This document shows positions 22,188 through 43,972 of a stretch of DNA of 64,000 nt, in pieces. Within the stretch, counting starts at the first letter, position 1, and the number at the start of each line of letters is the position of its first letter. A model generated the notes under the pieces. It was not told the DNA's origin. It was given only the letters and a program-made list of their open reading frames with translations, and did not search any database. This DNA is from Tepidiforma flava (GTDB lineage Bacteria > Chloroflexota > Dehalococcoidia > Tepidiformales > Tepidiformaceae). The stretch covers positions 372,001 to 436,000 of the forward strand of contig NZ_CP115149.1 of NCBI RefSeq assembly GCF_027594505.1. Reading direction: 5' to 3'. The position numbers and the translations under genes were made by a program.

Positions 22188-22734
22188 ATGGTTCGGATTC
22201 TTGGCATCAACGGGGCGATTCGGCCGGGGAGCACGGCAGACCGCGCGCTGCGGCACGTGCTCGGGCTGCTCGCTGCGGACGGCGCGGCGTGCGAGACGTT
22301 CGACATCGGGACGCTGCCGCTGCTCGACGGGCGCCCGGCGGACCAGCTGCCGCCGGGCGTCGCGGCGTGGCGGGAAGCGTGCCGGGCGGCGGACGGCTTC
22401 GTCGTGGCGACGCCCTCGTACCACGGCGCGATGCCCGGCGGGCTGAAGAATGCGCTGGACTACCTCGACGCGCCGGAAGCGGGCGGGAAGCCGTTCCTCG
22501 TCGTCGCGGTGGCCGGCGGCGACGCGGAGCCGGCGGCGACGGACGTGACGCGGGTGCTGCGGCACATCGGCGGGGTGGCGGGAGGGCCGAATGTCGTGGT
22601 CTCCCGGGCGGGCGACGCGTGGGGCAAGGGGTCGACCCGGCCAGCGCGGAGGCGGCCGAGCTGGCGCGGCGGGGGCCGCGGCATTCCTCGCGCTCTGCCG
22701 GCTGCGGGCCGAGGGGCGGCTGCCGGGGCCGTGA
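22188..22734 (+). CDS. NADPH-dependent FMN reductase family protein (two frameshifts)
   Basis: Flavodoxin-like reductase of about 182 residues. Seen: RILGINGAIRPGSTADRAL (FMN phosphate loop), CETFDIGTLPLLDGR, FVVATPSYHGAMPGGLKNALDYL (isoalloxazine contact) and GGVAGGPNVVVSRAG. The C-terminal helix is recovered only after shifts near 22625 and 22675 (VDPASAEAAELARRG, then LCRLRAEGRLPGP). The stop overlaps the Nudix GTG. Likely quinone or flavin reduction; FMN supply comes from the riboflavin genes nearby, though there is no shared control. Confidence 0.85.
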
Positions 22735-23233
22735 GCGGCTGGCGCTACTGCCCGGCCTGCGGTGCGCAGCGGCCGGCAGGGCTGGACGACCCGTCGAGTG
22801 CCTGCCCGGCGTGCGGCCACCGGGAGGCGCGCTACCCGGGCGTCGGCGTCGCCGTCATCGTCCGGGATACGCTGGGGCGGGTGCTGCTGGGGCGGCGCAC
22901 CGGGGGACGGCGGGCCGGGCTCTGGTGCATCCCGTGCGGGCGGCTGGAGTGGGGGAGGAGGTGCGGGCGGCGGCTCTCCGCGAATTCCGCGAGGAGACGG
23001 GCCTCGAGGTCGAGCTGACGGGCGTCTACGACGTGCACAGCAACTTCCACGACCCGGACCGGCTGACGGTCGGGATCTGGTTTTCGGGCACGGTGACCGG
23101 CGGGGAGCTGCACCCGGCCGACGGCGAGCTGAGCGAGCTGGGGTGGTTCGACCCGGCTCAGCCGCCGGAGCTGGCGTTCCCGACGGACGCGCTGGTGCTG
23201 CGCCGCCTCGCGATGGAAGGCCACGGCCAGTAG
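22731..23233 (+). CDS. Nudix hydrolase with N-terminal zinc ribbon (one frameshift)
   Basis: About 168 residues. The zinc ribbon CPACGAQRP...CPACGH is followed by a Nudix fold: GVAVIVRDTLGRVLLGRR, then the Nudix box ending AALREFREETGLEVEL after a frameshift near 22955, then VYDVHSNFHDPDRLTVGIWF. Zinc-ribbon Nudix enzymes include NADH pyrophosphatase relatives and ADP-ribose hydrolases; the substrate cannot be chosen here. GTG overlaps the upstream TGA. Its 3' end overlaps the convergent protease gene by about 75 bases unless that gene ends earlier. Confidence 0.87.
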
Positions 23234-23576
23234 CGGGCGACGACGCGGCCTTCGACGAGGTAGGGCGGGACTGGCCCGAAGGCGCGGCTGTCGGTGCTGG
23301 CGGCCGCGTTGTCCCCGAGGAGATCGAGGCTGCCGTCAGCATGGACGCGGGCGACGCGCTTCACGAGCAGCCGGTCGAAATCGCGGGGTCGCGGGCCATG
23401 ACGACGTCGCCGGGGCGGGGCGGGTGGGTGCGGTAGGCGCGGCGGTCGGCGATCGCCCAGTCGCCGGGGCGAAGGGCGGGACGCATGCTGTCGCCCTCGA
23501 CGGCGATGCGCTGGAACCGGCGGCTGAGGTAGCCGGCGAGGACGGCGATGAGGAGGAAACCGGCGAGGAGGCGCAT
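23158..23576 (-). CDS. S24/S26 family protease, nickel-SOD maturation protease-like (one frameshift)
   Basis: About 139 residues. An N-terminal membrane span (LLAGFLLIAVLAGYL) precedes the signal-peptidase fold: IAVEGDSMRPALRPGDW (Ser nucleophile), then LLVKRVARV (catalytic Lys, after a frameshift near 23385), then LLGDNAAASTDSRAFGPVP and a GRVVARYWP end. The GDNxAASTDSRxFGPV block and short size match the proteases that cut the leader of nickel superoxide dismutase (SodX type) better than general LepB. A sodN gene lies 27 kb away in this window. The exact 3' end is uncertain. Confidence 0.78.
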
Positions 23577-23589: not shown

Positions 23590-24444
23590 TCAGTGGATGA
23601 GCGGCGTGTCTGCGGGGGCGCCGCTGAGGTCGGGACGGCCGCTCCAGAGCCACGCGAAGTTCGTCTTCGAAACGCCGACGAGCATGCCGAAGAGGGCCTT
23701 CGGGTGGATGAAGAGATTCGTCCCGGGCGGGCGCCCTCGGCGGGCGCCCGGGGAGGCCGAGCGCGTCGAGCCGGGCTTCGAGCATGGGGACGTCGTCGGT
23801 TTCGAGGTAGCACATGTAGAGCGAGGGCCGCGGCGGCGGAAGAAGCGGTCCATGGCGCCGCCGCCGAAGGTCTGGGTGATTTCGATGCGGTCGAGCCGGC
23901 GCGGCGGGTCGAAGAGGGTGAGGACGCCGTCGTAGCCGTAGCGCTCGCTGCGGATGGGGCAGAAGTGCGCCGGCTCGAGGCCGAAGATGCGGGTGTAGTA
24001 GTCGGCGGCTTCGCGCCAGTCGGCGACGGGGTTGGTGACTTCGTAGATGGAGCGGATATCGCCGACGGGGTCGCGGGGGTATCGGGGACGATGACGGCGG
24101 GCATGCCGTAGCGGGCTTCGCGGAGGTAGAGGACGCCGTGCTCGGCGGCGAAGGGGACGCCGTTGGCATCGAGCCGGGCGGCCATGGCCTCGATGGAAGG
24201 GGTGGCGAAGCCGGCGCCGAAGAGGCCCTGGCCCCAGCGGTCGGCGAATTCCTGGACGGGGCCGGGGCCGGTGGGCGTCAGCAGTTCGATGAGGGATTCG
24301 CCGGCCTGGAGGGTCGTCCGGCGCGCTGAGCACGGCGGAGCCGTCTTCGGCGAGGCGGCGCGCGCCGAAAAGCGCGGCGAAGCGCTCAGCTGCTTCCGCG
24401 CGGTCCGGGACGACGAGCAGGATGCGGTCGAGACGGGTGAGCAT
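23590..24444 (-). CDS. VOC (glyoxalase/dioxygenase) superfamily protein (at least four frameshifts)
   Basis: About 287 residues with two VOC half-domains. The first has LDRILLVVPDRAEAAERFAALFGARR, ESLIELLTPTGPGPVQEF and GMPAVIVPDTP. The second has IYEVTNPVADWREAADYYTRIFGL, RIEITQTFGGGAMDRFF, LYMCYLETDDVPMLEARLDA and NLFIHPKALFGMLVGVSKTNFAW. Breaks are near 24310, 24080, 23830 and 23750, the highest density in the window. GGAGG precedes the ATG by 7 bases. Possible epimerase, lyase or dioxygenase; not resolvable. Confidence 0.8.
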   Translation of the reverse strand: MLTRLDRILLVVPDRAEAAERFAALFGARRLAEDGSAVLSAPDDPPGRRIPHRTADAHRPRPRPGIRRPLGPGPLRRRLRHPFHRGHGRPARCQRRPLRRRARRPLPPRSPLRHARRHRPRYPRDPVGDIRSIYEVTNPVADWREAADYYTRIFGLEPAHFCPIRSERYGYDGVLTLFDPPRRLDRIEITQTFGGGAMDRFFRRRGPRSTCATSKPTTSPCSKPGSTRSASPGARRGRPPGTNLFIHPKALFGMLVGVSKTNFAWLWSGRPDLSGAPADTPLIH

Positions 24445-24498
24445 GGCGCACCTCCGGCAGGGCTATTGAAGCACAGGGAGGGGCGGATGGGGCAGGGG

Positions 24499-25818
24499 TC
24501 AGGCGGGTTCGCGGACGCCTTCGCCGGAGGTGGAAAGGTCGACGGCCTGGCCGCCGCGGGTGAGGAGGAGCGGCCGCGTCTTGTTGATGACGCAGTCGGC
24601 GTTGACGACGCATTTCTTGATGTCGGTGCGGCCGGGGATTTCGTACATCACGTCCATGAGCGTCTCTTCGAGGACGGTGCGGAGGCCGCGGGCGCCGGTT
24701 TTGTGCTTGATGGCGAGGTCGGCGACGGCGCGAAGGGCGTCGTCGGTGAAGACGAGCTCGACGCCGTCCATGGCGAAGTAGCGCTGGTACTGCTTGACGA
24801 GGGCGTTCTTGGGCTCGGTGAGGATGCGGACGAGGGCGTCCTCATCGAGCGACTGGAGGCCGACGACCATGGGCAGGCGGCCGACGAATTCGGGGATGAG
24901 GCCGAATTCGAGCAGGTCGTCGTGGGTGACGTGGGCGAGGAGTTCGTCCTTGCGCTTCTGGCCGCGGAAGCCGCCGCGCTGGGCAGCCTGGAAGCCGAGG
25001 CGGACGTGGTCGCGGGTGAGGCGCTTTTCGATGTGGTTTTCGAGGCCTTCGAAGGCGCCGCCGCAGATGAAGAGGATGTTGGCGGTGTTGATCTGGAGGA
25101 AGTCCTGGTGGGGGTGCTTCCGGCCGCCCTGCGGGGGCACGTTGGCGATACAGCCTTCGATGATCTTGAGGAGGGCCTGCTGGACGCCTTCGCCGGAGAC
25201 GTCGCGGGTGATGGAGGGGTTATCGCCTTTGCGGGCGATCTTGTCGATTTCGTCAATGTAGATGATGCCGCGCTCGGCTTTCTGGATGTCGAAATCGGCG
25301 GCCTGGATGAGGTGGAGGAGGATGTTCTCGACGTCTTCGCCGACGTAGCCGGCTTCGGTGAGGGCGGTGGCATCAGCGATGGAGAAGGGGACATCGAGGA
25401 GCTTGGCGAGCGTCTTGGCGAGGTAGGTCTTGCCGACGCCGGTGGGGCCGACGAGGAGGATGTTGGACTTTTCGAGCTCGATGTCGCCGTCGGCGGGCTG
25501 GCCGATGCGCTTGTAGTGGTTATAGACGGCGACGGAGAGGACTTTCTTGGCCTGCTCCTGGCCGATGACGTACTCGTTGAGGTGTTCGTAGATTTTGCGC
25601 GGGGGCGGGACGTTCTGGAGGGTGACGCTGCCCTGGCGGCTGGCGGAACCGGACGCGGCCTGGCCGTTCTCCTCGTCGATGATTTCGCGGCAGAGGTCGA
25701 CGCATTCGTCGCAGATGTAGACGGCGCCGGGGCCGGCGATGAGGCGCCGGACCTGGTCCTGGCTCTTGCCGCAGAAGGAGCAGTGGTACTGGACGCGGTT
25801 GGTTCGGTTGGTGGCCAA
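24499..25818 (-). CDS. clpX: ATP-dependent Clp protease ATP-binding subunit ClpX
   Basis: AAA+ unfoldase that feeds ClpP; 439 residues, intact. Zinc-binding domain [11 protein letters not shown]...CDECVDLC, Walker [14 protein letters not shown], Walker [12 protein letters not shown], the pore loop [11 protein letters not shown], the RKH loop and sensor 2 ([11 protein letters not shown]). The IGF-type ClpP-binding loop appears as [12 protein letters not shown]. The start is TTG with AGAGGGG upstream. It follows clpP by 30 bases in the classical tig-clpP-clpX order. Confidence 0.98.
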
Positions 25819-25848
25819 GGCGGTGGTGTCCCCTCTGCGTGTGCTGTC

Positions 25849-26478
25849 TAGTTGGTTTCCGCGACGGGGCGGAGGAGTTCGTCGACGAAGCCGTACTTTT
25901 GGCGCCTTCGGCGTCGAGGTAGAAGTCGCGGTCGAAGTCGCGGGTGACGCGTTCGACGGGCTGGCCGGTGTGCTTCGCGATGATGTTCCGGATGATTTCG
26001 TTGTTGCGGAGGATTTCCTTCGCAGCGATTTCGATGTCGGCGGCCTGGCCGCGGGCGCCGCCGAGGGCCTGGTGCATGTGGACGGTGGCGTTGGGGAGGG
26101 CGTAGCGCTTGCCCTTGGCGCCGGCGCAGAGGAGGACGGTGGCCATGGACGCGGTCTGCCCGACGGCGATGGTGGAGACGTCGGGCTCGATGAGCTGCAT
26201 GGTGTCGTAGATGGCGAGGCCGGCGGTGATGACGCCGCCGGGCGAGTGGATGTAGAGCGAGATGTCGCGCTCCGGGTCTTCGCGCTGGAGGTAGAGGAGC
26301 TGGGCGACGATCAGGTTGGCGATCTGGTCGTCGATGGGGGTGCCGAGGAAGACGATCCGCTCTTTGAGGAGCAGGGAGAAGATATCGAAGGCGCGCCGGA
26401 GCGGGGGCCGGATTCGATGACCGTGGGGATGACGTCGTAGATGAGCGGGTGGACGCGCGGGGGCTGCTGCTGGCTCAT
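25849..26478 (-). CDS. clpP: ATP-dependent Clp protease proteolytic subunit (two frameshifts)
   Basis: Serine protease that forms the ClpP barrel; about 210 residues. Catalytic Ser in [12 protein letters not shown], His in [12 protein letters not shown], Asp in [13 protein letters not shown]. The front [23 protein letters not shown] and [20 protein letters not shown] are standard. Breaks near 26400 and 25905. The ATG overlaps the tig stop (ATGA), and GGAGGAA lies 6-12 bases upstream. The end [16 protein letters not shown] is close to the clpX start. Confidence 0.96.
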
Positions 26479-27765
26479 GCCTGTTCCTCCTGGAGTTCGC
26501 CCCGGGCAAGGGCGCTGAGGCGTTCGAGGGTCTTCCGCGAAAGCAGGTTCCGGCGGATGGTGGCGACCCCTCTTCGGTGGCGAACATCTGGCGGAACCGT
26601 TCGGCATCGTCGCCCATGGGCGCGACCAGCGAATCGAGCTCCTGTTCTATCTCTTCGGCCGAAACGTCGATGCCTTCAGCCTCGGCGAGCGCTTCGAGCA
26701 CGAGCGAACGCTTGACGCGGGTCTCGGCGGCCTCCCGCCAGGTCTCGCGGAACTCCTGCTCGGTGCGGCCGATGGTCTGGAGGTAGGCGAGGTACTGCTG
26801 GCGGTCGTTGCCCATCGCATCGCGGATGAGGTGGTCGATTTCGTGCTCGACGAGGATGCGCGGGTATTCGATGGTGGCGGTTTCAACGAGCTTATCGACG
26901 GCGGCGGCGCGGAAGCGGTTTTCGGCGGCTTCCTCGAGGGTGCGGCGGAGGTCGGCCTCGATGCGGTCGCGGAGCGCCTGCAGCGTCGGGAACTCGTCGG
27001 CGTTGATGGACTGGGCGAACTCGTCATCGAGCGCGGGGAGCTGTTCTTCCTTCACCTCGTGGACGGTGATGGTGAAGGTCGCGGTCTTGCCCTGGAAGCG
27101 TTCGATGCGGAAGTCGGCCGGGAATTCGATGTCGAAGGTGCGCGATTTGCCTTTTTCGAGGCCGAGGAACGCCTCGGCGAGGCCGTCGACGAAGAGGGTC
27201 TCGCCTTCGCGCAGCTGGAACTCGGCGCGGTCGTCGCGGAGGACTTCTGCGCCGTCGATGGTGGCGGAGACATCGGCGATGAGGATGTCGCTCCACTGGA
27301 CGGGGCGGTCGACGGGGACGTGGGTGGCGTGCCGCTTGCGGAGCGCCTCGAGCTGCTCGTCGACCATTTCAGGGGTGACTTCGACGGTTTCGCGCTCGAC
27401 GCGGATGCTGCGGTAGTCGTTCAGTTCGACCGAGGGGCGGACGGGGACGATGGCTTTGAAGCGGAGCGGCTCGAGGGAGTCGATCTCGAGCTCAGGCTGG
27501 CCGATGGCGGGGACGTCCTCGGCTTCGATGGCTTCGTTGTAGACGTCGGGGACGAGGGTATCGAGGGCTTCGCGGATGAGGCCCTGGCGGCCGTAGGCGC
27601 GTTCGACGATGGCGCGGGGGCTTTGCCGGGGCGGAAGCCGGGGAAGCGGTTGCGCCGGGCGATGCGGCGGTAGGCGGCATCGAGCGACTGTTCGAGTCGC
27701 TCGTCATCGACTTCGATTTCGAGTTTGACGCGGCTTTCGGGCAGCCGCTCGAGCGTTACCTTCAC
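26475..27765 (-). CDS. tig: Trigger factor (two frameshifts)
   Basis: Ribosome-bound chaperone and prolyl isomerase; about 430 residues. The ribosome-binding loop is seen as [10 protein letters not shown] (usual GFRxGKxP), the FKBP-like domain as [15 protein letters not shown], and the helical arms follow with [13 protein letters not shown] and [15 protein letters not shown]. Breaks near 27620 and 26570. GTG start with GGAGGAA 12-18 bases before it. First gene of tig-clpP-clpX, an arrangement found in many bacteria. Confidence 0.95.
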
Positions 27766-27790
27766 GGGCTGAAACGTTCCTCCGGGTTCG

Positions 27791-27796
27791 AGTATA
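27791..27796 (-). promoter_or_regulatory. -10 box of tig-clpP-clpX
   Basis: TATACT on the minus strand in the 72-base gap before tig, predicting a leader of about 19 bases that includes the ribosome site. No good -35 at 17 bases. Confidence 0.5.
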
Positions 27797-27837
27797 GCAA
27801 ACGGGTTCGCTGGGGCTCCGGGGCGCGCGGCCGGGCC

Positions 27838-28816
27838 TCAGCGGAGGGCCTGGGTGCGGGGCTCGAGGAGGTCGACGAGGGCGTCGCCGAGGAGGTTCCA
27901 GGCGAAGAAGAAGAGGGTGACGGGGATGGCGGGCGCGAGGAGGAGGTGGGGGTAGCGCTCGAAGGTCTGGGGGCCGGCGCCGGCGGCGATGAGCGAGCCG
28001 AAGCTGGCCGTCGGCGGGTCGATGCCGAGGCCGAGGAAGCTGAGTGTGACCTCGGCGCCGGCCGTCCCGGCCATGCCGGCGGAGACGCCGACGACGAAGA
28101 GCGGGAGCACGCCGGGGAGGATGTGGCGGAAGATGATGCGCCACGAGGAGGCGCCCATGGCTTCGGCGGCGAGGACGTAGGTTTCTTCGCGGATGGCGAG
28201 GGCCTGGCTGCGGACGATGCGGCTCGTGCCGATCCAGGCGAAGGGAACAGTGGCGAAGACGATGATGCTGAACTTCACGAAGGTGCGGGCATCGCTGCCG
28301 AGGAAGGTGTTGTCCTGGAGCCAGAAGGCGACGTCGTTGATGCGGGTGCGGAAGGCGGCGGTGATGGCGAGCATGAGGAGGAGGGTCGGGAGGCCGGCGA
28401 GGACTTCGCCGACGCGCATGATGAGGGTATCGACCCAGCCGCCCCGGTAGCCGGCGAGGAGGCCGAGGCCGAGCCCGAGGACGAGGCTGCCGCTGATGAG
28501 GACGACGATGGTGAAAACGACCGTGGTGCGGGCGGCGTAGATGACGCGGCTGGCGAGGTCGCGGCCGAGGGCGTCGGTGCCGAGCCAGTGTTCGGCGGAG
28601 GGGCCCGGCGGGTGGCGCCGGGGGTGAGGTTCTGCTGGTAGGGGTCGTGGGGAGCGATGAGCGGGGCGAAGATGCCGCAGGTGTAGAAGATGGCGAGGTA
28701 GACGATAGCGAGCATCGCCAGTTTCTTGCGCAGGAGCTGGCGGAGGAAGCGGCGCCGGGCGGGGGCGGCGGCGGTTTCGAACGCCAGGGGTCGGAAGCGG
28801 CAACGGCGGTGCTCAT
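27838..28816 (-). CDS. ABC transporter permease, DppC/OppC type (two or three frameshifts)
   Basis: Inner-membrane subunit of a peptide/nickel-type importer; about 326 residues. N-terminal tail, then the first span with FAPLIAPHDPYQQNLTPG, HWLGTDALGRDLASRVIYAART (family signature), and the coupling loop EETYVLAAEAMGASSWRIIFRHILP. The C-terminal signature WNLLGDALVDLLEPRTQ is complete. Breaks near 28780 and 28625. The ATG overlaps the stop of the DppB-type gene. Confidence 0.9.
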
Positions 28817-29763
28817 CCGCGCTGGGCCCCGAGGCGGATTCGCGGGTCGATCACCGCGTAGAGGATATCGATGAGGATGTTGGCGAGGACGAAGAGGACG
28901 GAGCCGAAGAGGACGAGCGCGAGGATGACGTCGAAATCCGGGGCGAGGACGGCTTCGAAGCTTTCGGCGCCGATGCCGGGGATGCCGAAGAGCTGCTCGA
29001 CGATGAGGGAGCCGCCGGCGACACCGGGGAGCGAGAGGCCGATGATGGTGATGAGCGGGAGGAGGGCGTTCCGGGCGACGTGGCGGATGATGACGATGCG
29101 CTCGGGGAGCCCCTTGGCGCGCGCCGTGCGGACGTAGTCCTCGCGGAGGACGCCGAGGACGGAGGCGCGGACGAAGCGGGCGATGCCGGCGGTGCCGGGC
29201 AGCGCGAGGATGAGGATGGGGAGGATGATGTTGGGGCTGGTGAAGCCTTGCCAGCTGAGCCCGACGAGGTCGAGCTTGACGGCGAAGAGCCATTGCAGGA
29301 AGGGCACGGCGACGAAGATGGGGACGGCGTCGATGGCGAGCCAGAAGGAGATGGTGAGCGGGTCGAGGAAGGTGCCGCGGGCGATGGCGGCGTAGATGCC
29401 GGCGGAGATGCCGAGGAAGAAGCTGATGGCGAGGGCGATGAGGCCGAGCCGGGTGGAGACCCAAATCTTGGGGATGATGATTTCGGAGACGGTGAAGGAC
29501 TGGTGGCGGGTGGAGACGCCGAGGTCGCCCCGGAGGAGGTTCTGCATGTATTTGACGTACTGGACGTGGATGGGCTGGTCGTAGCCGTACTTCTTGCGGA
29601 TGAGGGCAGCCTCCTCCTCGCGGTAGCGCTGGCCGAGGAGGGAATCGACCGGGTCGCCGGGGGCGAGCCGGAGCATGTAGAAGACGATGACGGAGATGGC
29701 GAAGAGGACCGGTATCGCCCAGAGCAGCCGACGAACGATGTAGCCGGCGAGGCCCGGTGCCAC
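28813..29763 (-). CDS. ABC transporter permease, DppB/OppB type
   Basis: Second permease of the same importer; 316 residues, intact. MAPGLAGYIVRRLLWAIPVLF, then RLAPGDPVDSLLG, the GDLGVSTRHQSFTV block, and the coupling helix EDYVRTARAKGLPERIVIIRH with EAA-type spacing. Six spans. The GTG start lies 3 bases after the substrate-binding gene. No ATPase genes (DppD/DppF) accompany these permeases, so the motor is encoded elsewhere or shared. Confidence 0.94.
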   Translation of the reverse strand: MAPGLAGYIVRRLLWAIPVLFAISVIVFYMLRLAPGDPVDSLLGQRYREEEAALIRKKYGYDQPIHVQYVKYMQNLLRGDLGVSTRHQSFTVSEIIIPKIWVSTRLGLIALAISFFLGISAGIYAAIARGTFLDPLTISFWLAIDAVPIFVAVPFLQWLFAVKLDLVGLSWQGFTSPNIILPILILALPGTAGIARFVRASVLGVLREDYVRTARAKGLPERIVIIRHVARNALLPLITIIGLSLPGVAGGSLIVEQLFGIPGIGAESFEAVLAPDFDVILALVLFGSVLFVLANILIDILYAVIDPRIRLGAQRG

Positions 29764-29766
29764 GGT

Positions 29767-31433
29767 CTACGGCTCCTTGATTTCGACGTACCGGAACTTC
29801 GGGATGGTCATCGGCGCATCGGGCAGGCCTTTGACGCACGGCTTGACGAGCATGTGCTCGACGGACCAGAAGGTGGGGATGATGGAGGCGTCGTCGATGA
29901 TCTTCTGCTCGGCCTGGCCGTAGAGCTGGTAGCGGCGCTCGCGGTTGGTTTCGACGCGGGCCTGCTTGAGGAGGGCGTCGACCTCCGGGTTGCTGTACTT
30001 GGTGTAGTTGAGCGGGCTGTCGCTGGCGAAGAGCTTGCCGAGGAAGTTTTCGGGGTCGGGGTAGTCGGCGGACCAGCCTTCGCTCTGGATCTGGAAGTTG
30101 CCCTGGCGCTGTTCGCGGAGGAAGGCGGCGGTATCGATGGCCTGGAGTTCGACGGTGACGCCGAGGACCTGCTGCCAGTTTTCCTGGATGGCGACGAGGA
30201 GGTCGCCGGGGGCAGCGCCGGTGCCGGCGTAGGTGAGGACGATGCGAGGCATGCTGTTCGCGTACTTCGATTCGGCGATGAGCTGCTTCGCGCGCTGGGG
30301 GTCGTAGGGGTAGGTCTTGACGCTGCTGGAGCGCCCGGGCATCGCGCCGGGGACGATGCCGCCGGCGACGTCGTAGTAATCGAAGAGGAGGACGGTGTTG
30401 ATGGTCTCGCGGTCGATGGACATGGCGAAGGCCTGGCGGACCTTCGGGTCATCGAAGGGGCTTTGTTGGGGTTGAGGGTGAAGTAGAAGGTGGCGAGCCC
30501 GGGATAGGAGCGGTAGTCCTTCGAGAGCGGGTTGGAGCCGTCGACGATGGAGTCGAGGAGGGACGCCGGGAGCGGCGTCATGTGGATTTCGTCGTTCTGG
30601 TACTGGGTGAGGAGGGAGCCGCCGCCGAGCTGGAAGATGACCTCATCGACCCCGGGGGCGCCGAGGTGGTAGCGGGGGTTCTTGACGAGGCGGATGCGCT
30701 CGGCGGGCTTGAATTCGGCGAGGCGGAAGGGGCCGGTGCCGTTCGGGTTGCGCGTCCAGTTGCGCGGGTCGGATTCGATCTGCTGGCGGTCGACGACGAA
30801 GGAGACGGGGTAGGTGAGTTCGAAGATGAAGTAGTCGGAGGGTTCGATGAGGTCGATCTGGAGGGTGCGCTCATCGATGACTTTGACGCCGGAGACGGAG
30901 GGTGCGCGGCCCTGGAAGCGGTCTTTGAGGCCGACAATGTTGCCGAGGTAGGCGACGACGGTGGGGGAGGCGTTGGCGGGGTCGGCGGCGCGCTCGATGG
31001 AATACTTCACGTCTTCGGCGGTGACGCGGCGCTGATTGCCGGTATGGAAGACGACGTTGTCGCGGAGGCGGAAGGTGTAGGTGCGGCCGCCGTTGGTGAC
31101 TTCCCAGTTCTCGGCGATGTCGCCGACGACCTTGAGGTCGGGGTCGAGGGTGACGAGGCCGCCGAAGATTTCGACGACGTATTCGCTGGTGGAGACATCG
31201 ACGACCTGGATGGGGTCGAGGACGGTGTTGGGCTGGGAGCCCGGGATGATGAGGGAGTTGCCCTTGCAGATGCCGCCGGCGGATGCGCCGGGGCGGTTTT
31301 CGGAGCCGCCGCTGGCCGGCGCGGTGCCATCATCGCCGCCGCCCCCGGCGAGGGCGATGACGAAGACGACGCCGACGGCGAGGATGAGGAATGCGACGAC
31401 GCCCATCATGAGGGCGAGCATGCGGTTCGACAT
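29767..31433 (-). CDS. ABC transporter substrate-binding protein, family 5 (one frameshift)
   Basis: Extracellular peptide-type binding protein, about 556 residues. An N-terminal span (MMGVVAFLILAVGVVFVIALAG) acts as anchor without a lipobox Cys; a Gly/Ser linker follows. Family marks: LDPDLKVVGDIAENWEVTNG, FHTGNQRRVTAEDVKYSIERA and GTGPFRLAEFKPAERIRLVKN. After the break near 30465, FDDPKVRQAFAMSIDRE. First gene of the operon. GGGAG lies 8 bases before ATG. Substrate not inferable; peptides, sugars and nickel chelates are all known for the family. Confidence 0.92.
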
Positions 31434-31574
31434 TGAGCAGACTCCCAGCGTCAGCGGTTTTCGCAGGCGGGCACCCGGGGCGGCGGCGGTCGCGGGCCCC
31501 GGATGGCCTACAAGCGTACACGCCGCGGCGGGCTCAGGGGATGCATCGGCTCACCACGGCGGGAAAAGAACGCT
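31434..31574. other. Gap between the binding-protein gene and aspS
   Basis: 140 bases upstream of the importer operon and downstream of aspS. It contains GC-rich sequence and a minus-strand TACGCT near 31515 as a weak -10 candidate. No convincing terminator for aspS. Confidence 0.35.
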
Positions 31575-33336
31575 TTACGCCGGGGCGATGACCTGAATGC
31601 CGAGCTCTTCGAGCTGTTTGGGGTCGACGGGCGAAGGCGCGCCCATGAGCGGGTCGGTGCCGGAGGAGGCCTTGGGAAAGGCGATGACGTCGCGGATGTT
31701 GTCGGTGCCGACGAGGGACATCATGAGGCGGTCGATGCCCATGCCGACGCCGCCTTCGGGCGGGACGCCGTAATCGAGGGCATCGAGGATGACGCCGAAG
31801 CGCTCCTGCTGCTCCTCGGGGGTGTAGCCCATGAGGCTGAAGACTTTCTCCTGGTGGCGGCGGTTGTTGATGCGGATGGAGCCGCCGCCGACCTCGGCGC
31901 CGTTGAGGATGAGGTCGTACTGGCGGGCGATGACGGCGCCGGGGTCGGTATCGAGCAGGGATTCGTGCTCGGGGAGGAAGCCGCTGAAGGGGTTGTGGGT
32001 GGCGTCCCAGCGCTGCTCTTCGGGCCGCCATTCGAGGAGGGGGAAGCCGGTGACCCAGGCCATGCGGTAGACGGACGGGTCTTTGAGACCGAGCCGGGTG
32101 CCGAGTTCGTCGCGGACTTCGTGGAGGGAGCGGGCAACGACGCCGGGCTGGTCGGCGACGATGAAGAGCATGTCGCCGTCGCGGGCGCCGGTGCGGGCGC
32201 GGATGGCGGCGAGCTCGTCTGCGGTGAGGAACTTGGCGATGGGGGAGCGGAGTTCGCCGGGGGTGAAGCCGATGTAGGCGAGGCCTTTCGCGCCGCCGCC
32301 GCGGGCGATGGCGGTCAATTCGTCGATGTCGCGGCGGGTCATGTCGGCCTGGCCTTCGACGCGGATGGCTTTGACCTGGCCGCCGGCGGCGAGGGCGCCG
32401 GCAAAGACCTGGAAGGCGGTGCCGCGGAGCGGTTCGGAGATGTCGACGAACTCGAGGCCGTAGCGGAGGTCCGGCCGGTCGATGCCGTACTTCTCGATGC
32501 ACTCGGCGTAGGAGAGGCGCGGGATGGTGCGGGAGGGGAGTTTCGCGGCGCCGAAGCGGGAGAGGATTTCGACGTAGAGGTCTTCGACGAGGCCCATGAC
32601 GTCGTTTTCGTCGACGAAGGCCATTTCGAGGTCGAGCTGGGTGTGTTCGGCGACGCGGTTGGCGCGGAAGTCTTCGTCGCGGTAGCAGCGGGCGAGCTGG
32701 AAGTATTTTTCGAAACCGGCCGCCATGAGGAGCTGCTTGAGGATTTGCGGCGACTGGGGAGGGCGAAGAAGGTGCCGGGCCGGATGCGGGCGGGGACGAG
32801 GAAGTCGCGGGCGCCCTCGGGGGTGCTCTTGATGAGGGTGGGGGTTTCGATTTCGCAGAAGCCGCGGCTGCTGAGGTAGTCGCGGATGAAGCGGACGACC
32901 TCGTGGCGCAGCTTGATGACGCGGGCGACTTCAGGCCGGCGAAGGTCGAGATAGCGGTACTTCAGGCGGAGGTGCTCGTCGACCTCGGCGGGTTCGTTGA
33001 TGTAGAAGGGCGGCGTCTGGGCCTCGGCGAGGACGGTGCAGGCGGAGGGGATGACTTCGACCTCGCCGGTGGGGAGGTTGGGGTTGACGGTGGCGGGGCT
33101 GCGGAGGGCGACCGTGCCTTCGACTGGAGCACCCACTCCGTGCGGGCGCGGTGGGCGACGGCGTGGGCTTCCGGGGTATCGGGGTTGAAGACGACCTGGA
33201 CGATGCCGGAGGTATCGCGGAGGTCGATGAAGATGAGGCCGCCGTGGTCGCGGCGGCGGTGGACCCAGCCGGCGAGGGTGACGCGGCGGCCTTCGTCGGC
33301 GCGGCGGAGTTCGCCGCAGTAGGCATCCTTGAGCAT
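31575..33336 (-). CDS. aspS: Aspartate-tRNA ligase (two frameshifts)
   Basis: Class II aminoacyl-tRNA synthetase of the bacterial type, about 588 residues. Anticodon-binding OB fold with [20 protein letters not shown], motif 1 near [20 protein letters not shown], motif 2 [20 protein letters not shown], the GAD insertion, and motif 3 [19 protein letters not shown]. Breaks near 33125 and 32760. TACCCT 7 bases before the ATG predicts leaderless mRNA. Whether it also charges tRNA-Asn cannot be told without the rest of the genome. Confidence 0.97.
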
Positions 33337-33343
33337 GGACTAC

Positions 33344-33349
33344 AGGGTA
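33344..33349 (-). promoter_or_regulatory. -10 box of aspS, leaderless type
   Basis: TACCCT on the minus strand, 7 bases before the ATG; the gap to the next gene is only 26 bases. Confidence 0.5.
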
Positions 33350-33362
33350 GCCGAGGGCGTGC

Positions 33363-33731
33363 TTACGCGGTGGTGCGGGGTTCGGCGGCGAGCGGGCCGA
33401 GCTCCTCGGCGAAGGCGGCCTGGACGGCGGCATCGACGCGGCGGCGGAAGCGGTCGTAGGCCTCGACGAGGCGGGCGCCTTCCGGGGTGAGGGCGGTGTG
33501 GCCGCCGCCGGCGCCGCCGACTTCGGAGCGGACGAGCGGGTAGCCGAGGTTCGCTTCGAGCTCCTTCACCTTGCCCCACGCGCGGCGGTAAGAGAGGCCC
33601 ATGGCGGCGGCGGCGGCGGCGAGGGAGCCGGTCTCGGCGATGAGTGCGAGCAGGCGAAGCCGGTAGTCGGACATGACGAGGCCGTCGCCGGACTCGAGCC
33701 AGAGCTTGTAGCGGGGGACGAGGTCGCCCAT
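33363..33731 (-). CDS. ModE-like winged-helix regulator (LysR-type DNA-binding domain only)
   Basis: 122 residues, intact. The domain RLLALIAETGSLAAAAAAMGLSYRRAWGKVKELEANLG is the ModE/LysR winged helix (SYRRAW is the recognition helix seen in molybdate regulators), followed by a wing with GGGHTALTPEGARLVEAYDRFR. There is no molybdate-binding domain. Stand-alone forms occur beside molybdate or tungstate genes, but none is near here except a MobA-like transferase 11 kb away. It has its own -10 box that overlaps the stop of the preceding methyltransferase gene. Confidence 0.85.
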   Translation of the reverse strand: MGDLVPRYKLWLESGDGLVMSDYRLRLLALIAETGSLAAAAAAMGLSYRRAWGKVKELEANLGYPLVRSEVGGAGGGHTALTPEGARLVEAYDRFRRRVDAAVQAAFAEELGPLAAEPRTTA

Positions 33732-33737
33732 GGCGCC

Positions 33738-33743
33738 AGCCTA
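33738..33743 (-). promoter_or_regulatory. -10 box of the ModE-like gene, leaderless type
   Basis: TAGGCT, 6 bases before the ATG; it shares its first three bases with the stop codon of the upstream methyltransferase gene. Confidence 0.45.
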
Positions 33744-34480
33744 CTGCGGGGCGGGGGCCTCGGCCACCGGCTGCGGCTGGAAGGCGAGGGAGGCGGTGAC
33801 GATCATCGCGGAGGGCACGCGGAAGCGCTGCTCCCAGTTGAGGCCGGGGAGGCGGTCGATGTCGGTGCGGTACCGCTCGGAGCCGGCGATCTCCTCGAAG
33901 GCGTCGAGCGCGAAGCCGGCATCGGCGAGCGCGCTGAGGAGGTCGGCGAGCGTCCAGGGTTGTCGCCGTCGCGGAAGCGGAAGTAGGCGTGGGAGATGAC
34001 GAGCAGGCCCTTGTGGAGGCCGACGACGCGGGCGAAGGGGTGGCGGTCGTAGAGGTAAAGGCGGCCGCCGGGCTGGAGGAGGGCGGCGGCATGGCGGGCC
34101 CAGGCGTCGAAGTCGTCGACGGCGTCGAGGCCGCTCCATCCGTGGTAGAGGAGGTCGAACGCGGCGGGGGCGCGGGCCGCGATGGCTTCGAGGTCGCCGA
34201 ACTCCCAGGCCACGTCGATGCCGGCCTCGGCGGCGAGGCGGCGGGCCGGCGCGGCGGCGGCCTCATCGAGCGCCCAGGCGGTGACGCGGGCGCCGAGGTT
34301 GGCGAGGGAGAGCGCCTCTTCAGCGCGGTTCTCCGGGGTGACCGGGCCGGCGAGGACGCGGAGGCCGCCGACCTCGCCGAGGTACTCTGCCTCGAGGTCG
34401 GAGAAGCAGGAGCCGCCGTGCGCGTAGAAAGCCGGGTCGATCTCGAACCAGGAGGGCGATGGTTCGAGGGTGCGGCTCAT
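33741..34480 (-). CDS. Class I SAM-dependent methyltransferase (one frameshift)
   Basis: About 247 residues. Fold elements: GGLRVLAGPVTPENRAEEALSLANLGARVTAWALDE (motif I region, unusual because the Gly-rich loop is replaced by LAGPVTPEN), DVAWEFGDLEAI, FDLLYHGWSGLDAVDDFDAW, LLQPGGRLYLYDRHPFARV and, after a break near 33960, QPWTLADLLSALADAGF. This ending is typical of small-molecule methylases. The ATG overlaps the phosphatase stop. Substrate unknown. Confidence 0.82.
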
Positions 34481-35185
34481 GCGTTGAGGTCGCTGCGGGA
34501 CGACTGGATCGGCATGACGTGGGAGTAGTCGTTGATGGTGAGGATGACGCGGCGGGTGTCGGCGGCGCGCATGACGGAGATGGAGGTGTGGTGGACCGGC
34601 ACGAGGTGGTCGAAGGGGAGCCGAAGACCTGGCTGAGGATGGCGTTGATGACGCCCCCGTGGCAGACGACGGCGACGCGCATGCCGATGGACTCCTCGAT
34701 GATGCGGTCCATGGCGCGGAAGACGCGGGTGCGGAAAGCGTCGACGTCTTCGCAGAAGGGGTAGGCGCTGTGTTTGCGGGTGCGGGTCACCTCGCGGTAG
34801 ATGTCGGCGAGCTGTTCGCGGGTGTAGATATCGAGGAGGCTCTTGTCCTGCGGGCGCGCTGCCAGAGGTCGATTTCGCGGAGGTCGGGGATGACGACGGG
34901 CTCGAGGCCGTGGTGGACGGCGATGGCTTTCGCGGTGTCGTGGGCGCGGCGCATGTCGGAGGAGTAGACGCGGCCGAGGCGGGCGGGCGCGAGCCGCAGG
35001 CCGACGGCTTCGGCCTGCTTTTGGCCGAGTTCAGAGAGGGGAGCATCGTAGGCCTGGCCGAGGGGGATGTTCTCGAAGAACTTCTGCTCGCCGTGGCGGA
35101 TGAGCAGGATTTCGACCATGCCTTCGAACGAATCGACGAAGGGGTTTTCGAGGTCGATGGTGCGGACGCGGCGGACGGAGGTCAT
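34477..35185 (-). CDS. Histidine phosphatase (phosphoglycerate-mutase-like) family protein (two frameshifts)
   Basis: About 237 residues. Phosphohistidine motif LLIRHGEQKFFE near residue 30, then YDAPLSELGQKQAEAVGLRL, RVYSSDMRRAHDTAKAI and the second His in AVVCHGGVINAIL. Breaks near 34855 and 34620. Middle gene of marR - phosphatase - methyltransferase, all joined by ATGA overlaps. It is likely a small phosphatase rather than a glycolytic mutase, because of length and the missing insertion. Confidence 0.88.
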
Positions 35186-35687
35186 GCGAGGTTCACCCCG
35201 GGCATGGCGACGGCGGCGAGGTTGGGCTCGACTTTCTGCACGTATTCGCTGGCGGCGACGAAGGCGGCGAGGCCGCGGACGAGGGCTTCGAGGTCTTCGT
35301 GGTGCATTTCGACGAGGATGCGGCGCGTGAAGATTTCGCTGCCGGTTTCGAGGCGGGAGCAGGTGGCTTCGCCCTGTTCAGTGAGGAAGTTGCGGACGAG
35401 GCGGCGGTCGGACTCGTCGTCTTCGCGGCGGATGAGCCCGGATTTGACGAGGCGGTCGACGATGCCGGAGATGGTCGGCGGGGTGACGCCGAGGCGCGTG
35501 GCGAGTTCGCCGGCGGTGACCCCGGGGCTTCGCGGACGAGGAAGAGGACGCGGAGCTGGGCGGTGGTGAGGCCCATCTCGGCCCATGCGCGGAAGCGGAG
35601 GGGGTCGAAGAGGTTGACGGTTTCGCCGAAGAGCCGGATGGCTGCGTCGACGGCGCTTTCAGAGGTGGGCGGAGACTGCACGGGCAC
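35182..35687 (-). CDS. MarR family transcriptional regulator (one frameshift)
   Basis: About 169 residues. Winged helix: AGELATRLGVTPPTISGIVDRLVKSGLIRREDDESDRRLVRNFLTEQG, with the DxRxxR-type wing. Helical dimer arms are at both ends. The frame breaks near 35525. It leads its operon and a palindrome sits at its probable transcription start, so it probably represses itself and the two downstream genes, with relief by a small ligand. GTG start; a second GTG 6 bases on is an alternative. Confidence 0.9.
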
Positions 35688-35700
35688 GCCTCGAATGTGG

Positions 35701-35713
35701 TTCGTCGTACGAA
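35701..35713. promoter_or_regulatory. Likely MarR operator
   Basis: TTCGTCGTACGAA, arms TTCGT/ACGAA, centred about 20 bases before the marR start and just after a minus-strand TAAAGT (35723-35718) -10 candidate. It lies in the 88-base gap shared with the divergent midA promoter. Confidence 0.5.
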
Positions 35714-35762
35714 GGGGACTTTAGCACCGATTGCGGCTTGCCTCCTCCCCGGGAGCGGCGCG

Positions 35763-35768
35763 CATACT
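35763..35768 (+). promoter_or_regulatory. -10 box of midA, leaderless type
   Basis: CATACT, 7 bases before the second of two consecutive ATG codons (35776) and 4 before the first; the spacing favours the second. Confidence 0.45.
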
Positions 35769-35775
35769 GGAAATG

Positions 35776-36851
35776 ATGACGCTCGACCTCGACCCGGGCA
35801 CGGCGGCGCTGGGGAACCCGCGGCTCATCGCGGCGATCGTCGCCGAGATGGACGGCGGGGCGATCCCGTTCCGGCGGTTCATGGAGCTGGCGCTCTACCA
35901 CCCGGAGCACGGCTACTACCGGAAGCGGGGCCGCATCGGGCGGCAGGGCGACTTCCTCACGAGCCCGGCGGTGCACCCGATGTTCGGCTGGGCGGTGGCC
36001 GGCTGGGCGCGCGACGCCTGGCGGCGGCTGGGCGAGCCGGCGGAGTTCACCATCTTCGAGCCGGGCGCGGGCGAGGGACACCTCGCGAAGGCCGTGCTCG
36101 ACTGGGCGGAAGGGCGGGACCCGGCGTTCGCGGCGGCAATTCGTTATGTTGCCATCGAGCCGAACAGCCCGGGGACGACCCGCGGGTCGACTGGCGGGTG
36201 CCGCCGGTGGAGCCGGCCGCGGCCGGCGTGGTCGTGGCGAACGAGCTGTTCGACGCGTTCCCGGTGCGGGTGTTCGAGGGCTCGCCGCGAGGGCCGGTGG
36301 AAGTGTTCGTGCGCTGGGATGGCGATCAGTTCGTGGAGGAGCGCGGGCCGATTGCGACGATGGACGACGCGCCGGCCGAGGGGCGGTTCGAGGTCAACCC
36401 GGCGGCCTACCCGGCGATGGTGAGCCTGTGCGGGCTGGTGGAGCGCGGCGCGGTGCTCGTGTTCGACTACGGCTACCCGCAGGAGGAGCTGTGGGCGCCG
36501 TGGCGGCGGCAGGGGACGCTGCTCTGCTTCTACCGGCACACGGCGCACGAGAACCCGTACATCCACGTCGGCGAACAGGACCTGACCTCGCACGTGAACC
36601 TCTCGGAGCTGCTGGCGGCGGTGGAGGATGCGGGGATGCAGCCGTGGGGGCCGGTTTCTCAGCAGGAGTTCCTGTACAGCGTGGGGCTCGGCGGACTCGT
36701 CGAAGCGGCGCGCGGGGACCTGCAGGAGTACTTCACGCGGCGGCGTGCGCTCGAGCAGCTCACGGACGGCGCCGGGCTGGGGCGCATCCGGGTCATCGCC
36801 GGGACACGCGGCATCGACGGGCCGCCGCCGGGGTTCGAGCCGCTGCCGTGA
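35776..36851 (+). CDS. SAM-dependent methyltransferase, MidA/NDUFAF7 family (one frameshift)
   Basis: About 358 residues. Family marks: IPFRRFMELALYHPEHGYY, GDFLTSPAVHPMFGWAVA, IFEPGAGEGHLAKAVLDW (SAM loop), VVVANELFDAFPVRVF, LVFDYGYPQEELW and LTSHVNLSELL. The mitochondrial relative methylates an Arg of complex I subunit NDUFS2; bacterial copies are uncharacterised. Break near 36175. The stop overlaps the peroxiredoxin GTG. I use the ATG at 35776 because of the promoter spacing; 35773 adds one Met. Confidence 0.9.
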
Positions 36852-37357
36852 GCGGGCACGCGAACGGGCAGGAGCCGCCGCTGCGGGGCCGGTGCAGCCG
36901 GGCGAACCCGCGCCGGATTTCGAGCTCCCGGCCGTGCCGGACGGCGGCGAACCGTTCACGGTCCGGCTGCGGGAGCTGCTGCGGAAGGGCCGGGTGCTGC
37001 TGATTTTCTACCAGGACGACGGGATGCCGATTTGCACGAGCGAGCTGAAGGCGTTCGCGCAGGAGTACGAAACGCTGCGGCAGGCGGGCGTGCAGGTGTT
37101 CGGCATCAACACGAACGGGATCGGCTCGCACACGAAGTTCCACGAGCGGGACCACTTCCCGTTCCCGCTGATCAGCGACTTCTACGGGGAGGCGGTGAAG
37201 GCGTACGGCTTCTGGGACCCTGGGAGCGGAAATCCCGCCGGGGGTGGTCGTCATCGGGCAGGACGGGCGGGTGGCGTACGTGCTGCCGCACTTCAACCCG
37301 GGGAGTCTCTCGGCCTTCGAAGGGGTGTTCCGGGCGCTGGGGCTGTTCGACGGCTGA
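36848..37357 (+). CDS. Peroxiredoxin, AhpC/TSA family (two frameshifts)
   Basis: About 170 residues. Thioredoxin fold with GEPAPDFELPAVPDGGEPF, IFYQDDGMPICTSELKAFAQE (peroxidatic Cys in PICTSE), GINTNGIGSHTKFHERDHFPFPLISD and a last part VVVIGQDGRVAYVLPHFNPG. Breaks near 36890 and 37225. Only one conserved Cys is seen, so a 1-Cys or partner-dependent mechanism is likely. It is co-transcribed with midA. Its TGA abuts the stop of the convergent gene (TGATCA). Confidence 0.87.
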
Positions 37358-37741
37358 TCAGCCGGGGAGGCCGCGGGCGCGGAGGGCCGCGCGGATCTCG
37401 CGCTGGCGTTCGATGCAGGGGATTTCGAGCGGGTGGCGGCCGTGGCGGAAGCCGGACTGGAGCTGGCCGAGCAGGTAGCGGCCGTAAAAGCGGGGCCGGC
37501 CCATCTCGCGGACCTGGGTGAGGTGGAGCGCTTCGTGGGCGATGAGCGCGAGGCCGGCAGCCGTGCCAGGCCGGTAGCCGCCGGCGCGGAAAATGACGAA
37601 CGGCGCGAAGGTGATGGCCGTCTTCCCGAGCAGGGCCGGAATCCAGCGCCACGGCCAGCCGGTGACGACGCGCATCGCCTCGAGGTCGCGGCGGGGCACC
37701 CATTCGGCGAGGAGGCCGATGACCGGGGCGTCAAGGCGCAC
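37358..37741 (-). CDS. Small HEXXH-motif protein, putative metallopeptidase
   Basis: 127 residues, intact, no firm family. Central motif GLALIAHEALHLTQVREMG holds HEALH, a zinc-protease type HEXXH, between two short hydrophobic helices (WIPALLGKTAITFAPFVIFRAG upstream). The tail is basic (HPLEIPCIERQREIRAAL). It resembles DUF4157-like or membrane-near zincins in size. The GTG start overlaps the last 11 bases of the giant GT-C gene, so the two are made together. No third zinc ligand can be assigned with certainty. Confidence 0.65.
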   Translation of the reverse strand: MRLDAPVIGLLAEWVPRRDLEAMRVVTGWPWRWIPALLGKTAITFAPFVIFRAGGYRPGTAAGLALIAHEALHLTQVREMGRPRFYGRYLLGQLQSGFRHGRHPLEIPCIERQREIRAALRARGLPG

Positions 37742-40700: not shown

Positions 40701-42265
40701 ACGAAGCGGTACGCGCGGGGCCGGCCGGGGAGGTCCCGTGGCACGGGGTCGTCCCAGATTTCGGTGGTGATGGCGCTGCCGGGGGGACGTTCGCGTAGAC
40801 CCAGCGGGTGGCGGCGATGCGGGGGTGCTCTTCGAGGTAGACGCGCTGGAAGGCGAGCGCCCACCATGCCGAGGTCCCGAGGACGATGGCGAGCGCGGCG
40901 AACGCGAGGGCGCGGGCGCGCGGCGGGGGCAGGGACGCGCGGACGCAGCCGCGGGGAGCCGGAAGCCGGCGCGGCTTCGCTCGAGCAGCTGAAGCAGGCC
41001 CCACGCGGCGAAGAGGCAGAGGACAGGGTACATCGGCAGGAAGTAGCGCATGAACGCGACGAAGCGCGGCCCCCAGAAGCCGAAGACGAGCAGGGCGAAG
41101 GCGAGCGGCAGGAGGAGGATGAGGTCGCGGGAGCGGGCGGTTCGAACCGCGGCTGCGATGAGGCCGGCGAATGCGGCGGCGGCGAGGACGGGACCGAGGC
41201 CCCAGAGGGTGATATTGCGGAGGGCTGTGAGGAACGGCGTCGTGCCCGCGAACTGGATGAACGGCGGATAATCGGCGTTGCCCTGCTGAAAGTCGCGTTC
41301 GCGCTGGATGTCGTCCCACCACCGCTGGTTGAGGGCGAAATCCCATACGTGGGGGCCGGCGAAGGCGTAGGGCTGGGCGACGCGGAAGACGAGGAGCGAG
41401 ACAGCGCCGGCGAGGCAGAGCATGGAGACGTCGCTCAGCCAGGCCGAGCCGTGGCGGGGCGGCGGCTCGCTCCCGTCCCATCGGGCGGCGAGACGGCGGA
41501 GGTCATAGAGCGCGATGCGGACGGCGAAGGCGAGGACGGGGATGGCGGCGAAGATCGCGCCGTTGACCTTGCAGGCCGTGGCGAGGCCGATGCTGGCGCC
41601 GAAGCCGATGGCGAGCCACCAGGCGCGGGAGCCTTCGGCGCGCACTCCAGTGAACGGAGAAAAGGAGGGTGAGGAGGGCGAAGACGTTGAGGTACGGGTC
41701 CATCGCCCAGAAGTGGGCGAGCTGGGTCGGAAGGACGGCGAGGGCGTAGAGGAGGGCCGCGAGGAGGCCAAGGCGGCGGCTGCCGAGGGCGCTGCCGAGG
41801 AGGAAGACGAGGAGGATGGCGAACACATCGAAGGCGGCCGTCACCTGGCGGCCGGAGGCGACCGTCGCGGCGTAGGAGTTGCCCGGGCCGGGCGGGTCGT
41901 CGCCGCGAAGGGTGGCGACGGCTTTGACGAGGAAGAGCGGGAAGGTGCCATAGACGTAGGAGTTGGTTTCGCCGTCGTTGTAGGGATTGAGCGGCGAACC
42001 GGCGGTATCGAAGTAGCCGCCGATGCTGCCGGGCCAGTCGATGCGGTTCGCGACGAGGGAGAGGAACCGCTCATCAGGGTGCATCTGGAGGGGTAGTCGG
42101 CTTCCGGCGGCTGGTCCCAGCCGAGCCCGTGGAAGCGAAGGACGGCGCCGAGGACCAGGACCGCGGCGAGCCCGGCCTGCCAGGTGAGGACGCGCGCGAG
42201 GAAGCCGGACCGCAGGGCGGCGAGGCGGCCGCGGGCGGGCGTGACGGCGGGGAGGTCTCGGCCAC
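37731..42265 (-). CDS. Giant membrane protein: GT-C glycosyltransferase fused to DUF2298/'YYY' domain (about ten frameshifts)
   Basis: About 1,510 residues. The N-terminal half is a GT-C transferase: first span RVLTWQAGLAAVLVLGAVLR, the acidic loop QMHPDERFLSL, then GLATACKVNGAIFA, WWDDIQRERDFQQGNADYPP and FMRYFLPMYPVLCLF. Its outer domain leads through GLQFTAAEAEIQQSGGTF into the second half, which carries LNYYYMGWFYLAVP (the YYYxG mark), YWSFLFADLHPHLMGIPFF and NTVFKFSLQAWHLFALG. Breaks lie near 42095, 41650, 40955, 40780, 40670, 40295, 40025, 39085, 38955, 38400 and 38295. Joining at 40295 with one more C leaves no stop between the halves. The GTG start has GGAGGAG just upstream. Confidence 0.82.
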
Positions 42266-42288
42266 GCGCTCCTCCAGTGGTGGGCTAC

Positions 42289-42294
42289 AGGATA
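42289..42294 (-). promoter_or_regulatory. -10 box of the giant GT-C gene
   Basis: TATCCT on the minus strand, giving a leader of roughly 17-18 bases that includes GGAGGAG before the GTG. The 249-base gap between this gene and gap also holds a small hairpin, TCAGCG/CGCTGA at 42401-42416. Confidence 0.45.
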
Positions 42295-42514
42295 CGGCCG
42301 GCGGGCGTTCGGGACAGGAAACGGGCCGCGGGCCGGCCGGCGCTGCATCCGCGGTCCGGGCGTCCGGGGCGCGGAGCACCGCCGAAGGCAAGGCGGCGGC
42401 TCAGCGACGCCGCTGACCGCGGGCGGAGGCGCCGGGGCCTCGCGAACGGGCCGGGAACGGCGCTGCCCTCGCGGAGCGCGGGGGCAGCGGGTCCGGGACG
42501 AACGGGAGCGGGGG

Positions 42515-43931: not shown

Positions 43932-43972
43932 GCGAAACCTCCGGGCGGGGATTTGGGGCCGTGCGCATCCCC

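Follow-up and report, generated by a model that had tools for sequence, protein, structure and literature searches.

A probable SodX protease gene lying 27 kb from the nickel superoxide dismutase gene in Tepidiforma

The genes for nickel superoxide dismutase (sodN) and for its maturation protease (sodX) lie far apart in Tepidiforma, a genus of hot-spring bacteria in the Tepidiformaceae (Chloroflexota). In our opinion the gene at 23158-23576 of the window, by which we mean the whole stretch of 64,000 nt of Tepidiforma flava DNA analysed here, very probably encodes a genuine SodX that acts on SodN in trans and was parted from sodN by two blocks inserted in the Tepidiforma ancestor. The interval between the stop of sodN and the start of sodX measures 26,739 nt in the window and 26,583, 27,997 (approximate, as sodN is frameshifted there), 26,604, 29,213 and 29,220 nt in the five other Tepidiforma genomes, G001 to G005 respectively; in all six sodX lies 26.6-29.2 kb downstream of sodN and on the same strand. 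The original prediction, which proposed that such a pair had been separated by 27 kb, agrees with the split seen in all six Tepidiforma genomes and with the adjacency seen in 23 of 23 other family genomes that have both genes on one contig. What escaped it is the frameshift in the gene and the likely course of events, in which sodX would have stayed in place while the blocks were put in between.

What we describe is a known protease in an uncommon arrangement of a known gene pair, and unlinked pairs are rare elsewhere. Prochlorococcus and Streptomyces SodX are the literature examples of the nickel-type superoxide dismutase maturation protease. PMC3919588 describes sodN and sodX as neighbours in Streptomyces coelicolor, with a spacer conserved across streptomycetes. 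Superoxide dismutase is given as conserved in Tepidiformales in PMC10284905, whose main text makes no mention of "nickel". Our literature search, outside which most subscription journals lie, turned up no description of sodN and sodX being unlinked.

RESULTS

The protease gene is split between two frames

The protease gene, its substrate gene and the parts of both that are discussed below are as follows.

23158-23576, minus strand: sodX, nickel-SOD maturation protease gene, with one frameshift in the assembly; catalytic Ser30 and Lys73 in the read-through
23385-23388, no strand assigned: homopolymer run, site of the frame break
50316-50762, minus strand: sodN, nickel superoxide dismutase; TIGR02753 180.8 bits (cut-off 90), PF09055 160.9 bits
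50718-50762, minus strand: SodN leader, 15 codons, MNLLRFLRPSTIASA; cleavage expected before HCDGPCGVYDP

The first sodX frame starts with the ATG at 23576 and runs for 71 codons (MRLLAG...GDSMRP...VVMARDP) up to a stop, and LVKRV...GDNAAASTDSRAFGPVP is read in a different frame, which ends at 23158. The sequence as given holds no single open frame of 139 codons and cannot yield the full protein. The original prediction of one S26-type gene was therefore right about position and about the GDSM and LVKRV catalytic motifs, both of which are present, but these belong to separate frames that had been joined into one gene. Intact sodX genes were found in all five other Tepidiforma genomes at 75-94% identity, with G002 the closest (94%). 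When G004 proteins were compared with the window, 17 of 31 genes, including ffh, gap and clpP, were found split over more than one frame, and the same comparison in four other Tepidiforma genomes gave 1 of 30, 1 of 26, 1 of 32 and 2 of 33. Since breaks abound in this assembly and the relatives are intact, the sodX frameshift most likely stems from an error in sequencing or assembly. Findings on small genes in so frameshift-rich an assembly need comparison with relatives. A frameshift also occurs near the leader in sodN of G002 (locus L111, about 16000, minus strand), where there are two partial profile matches and the leader frame is altered.

Assignment to SodX rather than to signal peptidase I

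The 139-aa read-through passes the SodX model TIGR02754 (66.1 bits, 3e-18, cut-off 63.25), and it also matches the signal peptidase I (LepB) model TIGR02227, with 69.9 bits (cut-off 47), 3.8 above the SodX model, as well as Pfam PF10502 Peptidase_S26 (71.2 bits, 1.3e-19). These matches exceed chance. The gene as sequenced gives only two TIGR02754 pieces, of 37.3 and 17.4 bits. SodX of G001, G002, G003 and G004 all pass (66.7, 67.7, 67.9 and 69.4 bits), and that of G005 has 62.6 bits as a protein and, in the genome scan, 63.4 together with its neighbours.

The original prediction had suggested comparing the two families by profile and regarded best matches to general signal peptidase I as evidence against a maturase. 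On paper the higher LepB score is just such evidence, although the SodX cut-off is passed; SodX proteins encoded next to sodN in other genera behave alike, with SodX and LepB scores of 81.9 and 78.7 bits (G018), 75.4 and 72.4 (G026), 73.7 and 74.6 (G024), and 62.7 and 72.6 (G010). As all four of these controls match both models, the double match is normal for SodX. The genome's own LepB scores 46.5 bits with the SodX model and 152 with the LepB model and spans positions 4-161 of the 162 in TIGR02227 as one stretch; the read-through aligns to this model in two stretches, the best of which covers positions 5-76.

Catalytic Ser and Lys are invariant in all 22 aligned family SodX. In tree 1 (37 rows) the six Tepidiforma SodX form one group (100/99) within the 22-row family SodX clade (98/91), with LepB outside. 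Tree 2, of 37 rows with other family members, puts the three LepB rows across a 98/94 branch from Tepidiforma SodX. On the LepB side of it are also two sodN-adjacent S26 genes from other families (G041, G059), so a place beside sodN is not enough to mark out one SodX clade. Tree 2 puts SodX of G009, which starts at a contig edge, closest to the Tepidiforma group. Each tree holds three LepB rows; the LepB candidates of G003, G012, G030 and G056 and the G324 gene failed a motif filter and were left out of tree 1, where the G056 gene stands twice, trimmed differently, and remote S26 rows were left out of tree 2.

A second SodX, for which the original prediction proposed a search, was not found above the TIGR02754 cut-off anywhere in the window genome; a weak match lies at 719453 (13.7 bits). 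The other S26-like places inspected there comprise two LepB genes, of which one was scored and one judged by eye, and an open frame of 538 aa that belongs to another S26 type. One Peptidase_S24 place was matched too. A LepB-like protein (L006, reverse strand, genome about 1794472-1794924) has a very long, repetitive, acidic N-terminal extension with EEPRPWWEASEAEETVEEAVAS repeats.

By profile and tree, then, no SodX other than the gene at 23158-23576 was found in this genome, and the proposal of a SodX-type maturase is supported: the protein passes the family cut-off and groups with SodX, apart from LepB. It resembles SodX in being a short S26 protease with a Ser/Lys dyad and the GDN...S.DSR block, in a genome that also encodes SodN with a short leader before HCDGPCG; it differs in that its gene is not beside sodN but follows clpP-clpX-VOC. 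With LepB it shares the peptidase family, the catalytic dyad and a match of its N-terminal half to the model, but it has only 139 aa, no single full-length match and a separate tree branch, and the genome already has two LepB.

sodN of the window is the sole PF09055 match in its genome. SodN leaders are alike in Tepidiforma and relatives, with A-x-A before HCDGPCGVYDP in the family loci whose frame is intact (the exception, G018, has R-A). The Tepidiforma leader is the presumed target of SodX.

Linkage of sodN and sodX in relatives and beyond

Our family survey comprised 37 genomes, the six of Tepidiforma and 31 others (G006-G036). In each of the 23 others with both genes on one contig the two are adjacent and on the same strand, with 119-343 nt between the profile matches. 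Among the rest, G030 has them on different contigs, G012 and G032 have sodN only, G009 has sodX only and four have neither. Co-occurrence in relatives was another check that the original prediction called for: sodX is present in 30 of the 32 family genomes with sodN and in one of the five without it. The 30 include the window with its frameshifted copy and G021 with a full-length match below the cut-off.

The phylum survey included 399 Chloroflexota genomes that are at least 90% complete; sodN was found in 111 of them and a TIGR02754 match over the cut-off in 39. These 39 SodX lie no more than 306 nt from sodN in 37 cases, the other two being that of Tepidiforma G004 and one on another contig (G324). 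When weaker full-length matches are added, the total is 66, of which 59 are no farther than 306 nt from sodN and six are on other contigs, with G004 again apart. The 72 sodN genomes (of 111) with no match over the cut-off mean either that the SodX model misses remote members or that SodX is often absent.

Among the 80 best of a larger set of named loci that match SodN of the window, from several phyla, 73 have a match within 1 kb to a profile built from SodX of Tepidiforma's class, which may miss remote SodX; if one takes only those of the 80 whose flanks each reach 2 kb or more, the count is 54 of 58. The four exceptions are two Tepidiforma loci, cyanobacterium L211 with no SodX match in its flanks, and Xenococcaceae cyanobacterium MO_234.B1 (L184, 10001-18912). 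The last resembles Tepidiforma in that a SodX-like gene lies 8.2 kb from sodN, and differs in belonging to an unrelated lineage.

Short S26 genes of genus g38 located off the sodN contig (G056, G324, G370, G408 and G441; loci L134, L245, L247, L249 and L251) were not counted as SodX, because those of G056, G370, G408 and G441 form a distinct long branch and that of G324, just over the cut-off, is outside the tree. The four on this branch may represent another kind of protease.

Two housekeeping blocks lie between sodN and sodX

The neighbours of both genes and the contents of the interval between them are listed below.

22188-22643, plus strand: NADPH-dependent FMN reductase-like gene (PF03358), retained sodX-side neighbour
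22901-23233, plus strand: Nudix gene, frameshifted, convergent with sodX and overlapping its 3' end (PF00293 in the G004 copy), retained neighbour in other genera
23590-24444, minus strand: VOC/glyoxalase-fold gene, broken in the window (PF00903 on the G004 copy), stop 13 nt before the sodX start
24499-25818, minus strand: clpX, of block C
23590-35523 (upper limit approximate), minus strand: block C, with MarR, histidine phosphatase, methyltransferase-like gene, aspS, peptide ABC transporter, tig, clpP, clpX and VOC (Pfam on G004 copies except tig)
35600-50219 (lower limit approximate), minus strand: block B, with ffh, rpsP, rimM, tRNA-Ala, 2Fe-2S ferredoxin, LysR, MobA-like gene, YbjQ-like gene, gap and DUF2298 membrane protein (Pfam on G004 and G003 copies)
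47155-47230, minus strand: tRNA-Ala(CGC), at the permuted junction between rimM and ferredoxin
50262-50293, minus strand: strong hairpin between sodN and ffh, possible end of the sodN transcript
50728-52625, no single strand: peroxiredoxin (plus) and Zn-dependent alcohol dehydrogenase (ADH, minus), sodN-side neighbours retained in some other genera

The Nudix and VOC neighbours named in the original prediction are indeed there, VOC upstream and the convergent Nudix downstream, identified by PF00903 and PF00293, respectively, on the intact G004 copies; the VOC frame of the window, itself broken, has no Pfam match. At their 3' ends sodX and the Nudix gene share about 75 nt (23158-23233), and the last 20 or so residues of SodX are antisense to a conserved part of Nudix.

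In the linked genome G024 the order is ADH, peroxiredoxin, sodN, sodX, convergent Nudix, FMN reductase, pfkB, a RING/SH3 gene, an unnamed gene, ribH, ribBA and ribE (named by Pfam on the G004 and window copies). Tepidiforma has this order on both flanks, but some 27 kb separate sodN from sodX. Elsewhere in the family these neighbourhoods are shared in part: of the 16 sodX-bearing loci examined, 13 have a Nudix gene that converges on sodX at a distance of up to about 1.3 kb, rib genes follow sodX in six of those 16 and pfkB in five, and ADH-peroxiredoxin precedes sodN in three of 17 sodN loci, also in G030 and G032. Because both flanks keep the G024 order, it appears that neither gene left its place and that two housekeeping blocks came between them in the Tepidiforma ancestor, together or successively. 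G004 and G005 have two further predicted genes (22819 and 24402) inside the interval, which fits the larger distance there.

Both blocks have counterparts elsewhere in the family. The transporter, clpP and clpX of block C occur together in 10 of 10 family windows (rearranged in G022), with VOC beside clpX in six. As for block B, the set of ferredoxin, LysR, MobA, gap and DUF2298, or a remnant of it, precedes ffh in five of nine ffh windows of sister genera; in the other four ffh is alone or with rpsP-rimM, and rpsP of G024 is several kb from ffh. The same set comes after tRNA-Ala in Tepidiforma, which amounts to a circular permutation. This tRNA gene is found downstream of rimM on the same strand in all eight family ffh windows that hold rimM, and it occupies the permuted junction in the window and in G002 to G005, the five Tepidiforma genomes tested. 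Recombination is common at tRNA genes, so its position is a hint about mechanism, no more. Outside Tepidiforma the blocks can be far from sodN: one contig of G018 carries sodN at 1457 kb, ffh at 639 kb and clpX at 380 kb, and the positions in G017 are 423, 9 and 2086 kb. An origin of the 27 kb in a mobile element was considered and set aside as unlikely, the contents being housekeeping genes with homologues elsewhere in sister-genus chromosomes.

Transcription context and selective constraint

A hairpin follows sodN in all six Tepidiforma genomes, with differing letters and the same shape, and ffh comes next. Its z-scores against shuffled sequences are -4.70 in the window, -3.56 (G001), -2.80 (G003), -4.23 (G004), -3.36 (G005) and -2.10 (G002), where 8 of 200 shuffles were equally good. 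A simple terminator scan after sodN made no call, as the hairpin has no T run. At the other end, only 10-16 nt separate the VOC stop from the sodX start in all six genomes; sodN and sodX are -4 to 131 nt apart in the 11 other family loci for which a start was called. Judging by this layout, Tepidiforma sodN and sodX are probably not cotranscribed, and sodX would be read together with clpX-VOC. In G024 and G026, where the pair is linked, inspection by eye shows inverted repeats between sodN and sodX, and the two may therefore have been only loosely cotranscribed even before the split.

The dN/dS of the SodX domain is 0.11-0.45 in Tepidiforma (six pairs, G001-G004) versus 0-0.50 in genus g13, which has the linked arrangement (11 pairs with defined values of 15), and the Tepidiforma protease domain is under continued selective constraint. 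With the variable N-terminus included and the last 22 codons trimmed, sodX gives 0.26-0.69 (ten pairs), well above sodN with 0.03-0.17. SodX pairs of G005, sodX loci of G031, G030 and G011, and the sodN locus of G028 were left out of the domain comparison.

A probable second separation in genus g8

Of the g8 genomes, G024 and G028 have sodN and sodX side by side, and G012, G030 and G032 share a different stretch after sodN, from which sodX is missing. G030 has sodX on a 7-kb contig (L255, contig C184, 3823-6400), after the block C genes for MarR, histidine phosphatase and a methyltransferase-like protein; this histidine phosphatase is the only close copy found in the G030 genome. Under the thresholds applied, none of sodX, clpX and histidine phosphatase was matched in G012. 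The single short contig of this draft genome suggests a second separation of sodX, again beside block C. Tree 2 does not firmly tie the G030 protein to those of G024 and G028. Other loci that belong to this comparison are L256, L257 and L140.

DISCUSSION

Taken as a genuine SodX, the Tepidiforma protein would be a short S26 Ser/Lys protease, hydrophobic at its N-terminus, and would cut the leader of 15 residues off SodN, and the new N-terminal histidine and the CDGPC hook would then be free to bind nickel. The two blocks would have been inserted in the Tepidiforma ancestor exactly between the two genes. sodN would thus have retained its upstream neighbours and gained the hairpin and ffh at its 3' side, and sodX would have retained its downstream neighbours and come to lie 3' of the VOC gene that ends the clpP-clpX-VOC run. 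The genes would probably no longer be cotranscribed, and their products would still cooperate in trans.

Several other explanations have to be weighed. The protein might be a small general signal peptidase I of LepB type, unrelated to SodN, as its TIGR02227 score slightly above that of TIGR02754 would allow. We think this very unlikely given the like scores of sodN-adjacent SodX on both models, the grouping with those SodX and not with LepB in both trees, the two LepB genes that the genome has of its own (the second recognized by eye) and the presence of sodX in nearly all family genomes that have sodN. Still less probable is that sodX of the window is a true pseudogene and some other protease processes SodN there. 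The assembly does carry the frameshift, and SodN deprived of this protease might depend on a LepB or stay immature; against this stand the breaks in more than half of the compared window genes, housekeeping genes such as ffh, gap and clpP included, and the intact copies in all five relatives, of which the closest, G002, is 94% identical.

The distance could also have arisen by relocation of sodX itself over 27 kb, or by its regain through transfer, instead of by insertion. sodX of G030, away from sodN and beside block C genes, means that a mobile sodX is possible in this family. The Tepidiforma gene, however, retains its ancestral downstream neighbours, with the convergent Nudix that most of the examined family loci share and with pfkB, RING/SH3 and rib genes following as in G024, and we regard a move of sodX as the least probable of these explanations. 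One may go further and see the separation as a recurrent step in the family, which re-homes the protease beside the aspS-clpP-clpX block, at its VOC end in Tepidiforma and near histidine phosphatase in the G030 lineage, and would tie nickel-SOD activation to a Clp/protein-quality-control transcript, not to the dismutase, perhaps with added substrates. We find this idea improbable.

Under insertion of the blocks between two genes that stayed in place, a protease gene and its substrate gene can be parted and kept so across the sampled genomes of a genus, and adjacency would be a habit and not a need. This bears on genomes scored as having SodN and no SodX, such as the ten cyanobacterial strains so listed in PMC8346466, some of which may hide an unlinked or frameshifted copy. 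By the profile cut-off the window genome itself would count as lacking SodX. The Tepidiforma pair is a ready test case, provided by nature, for whether SodX can act in trans from an unrelated transcript.
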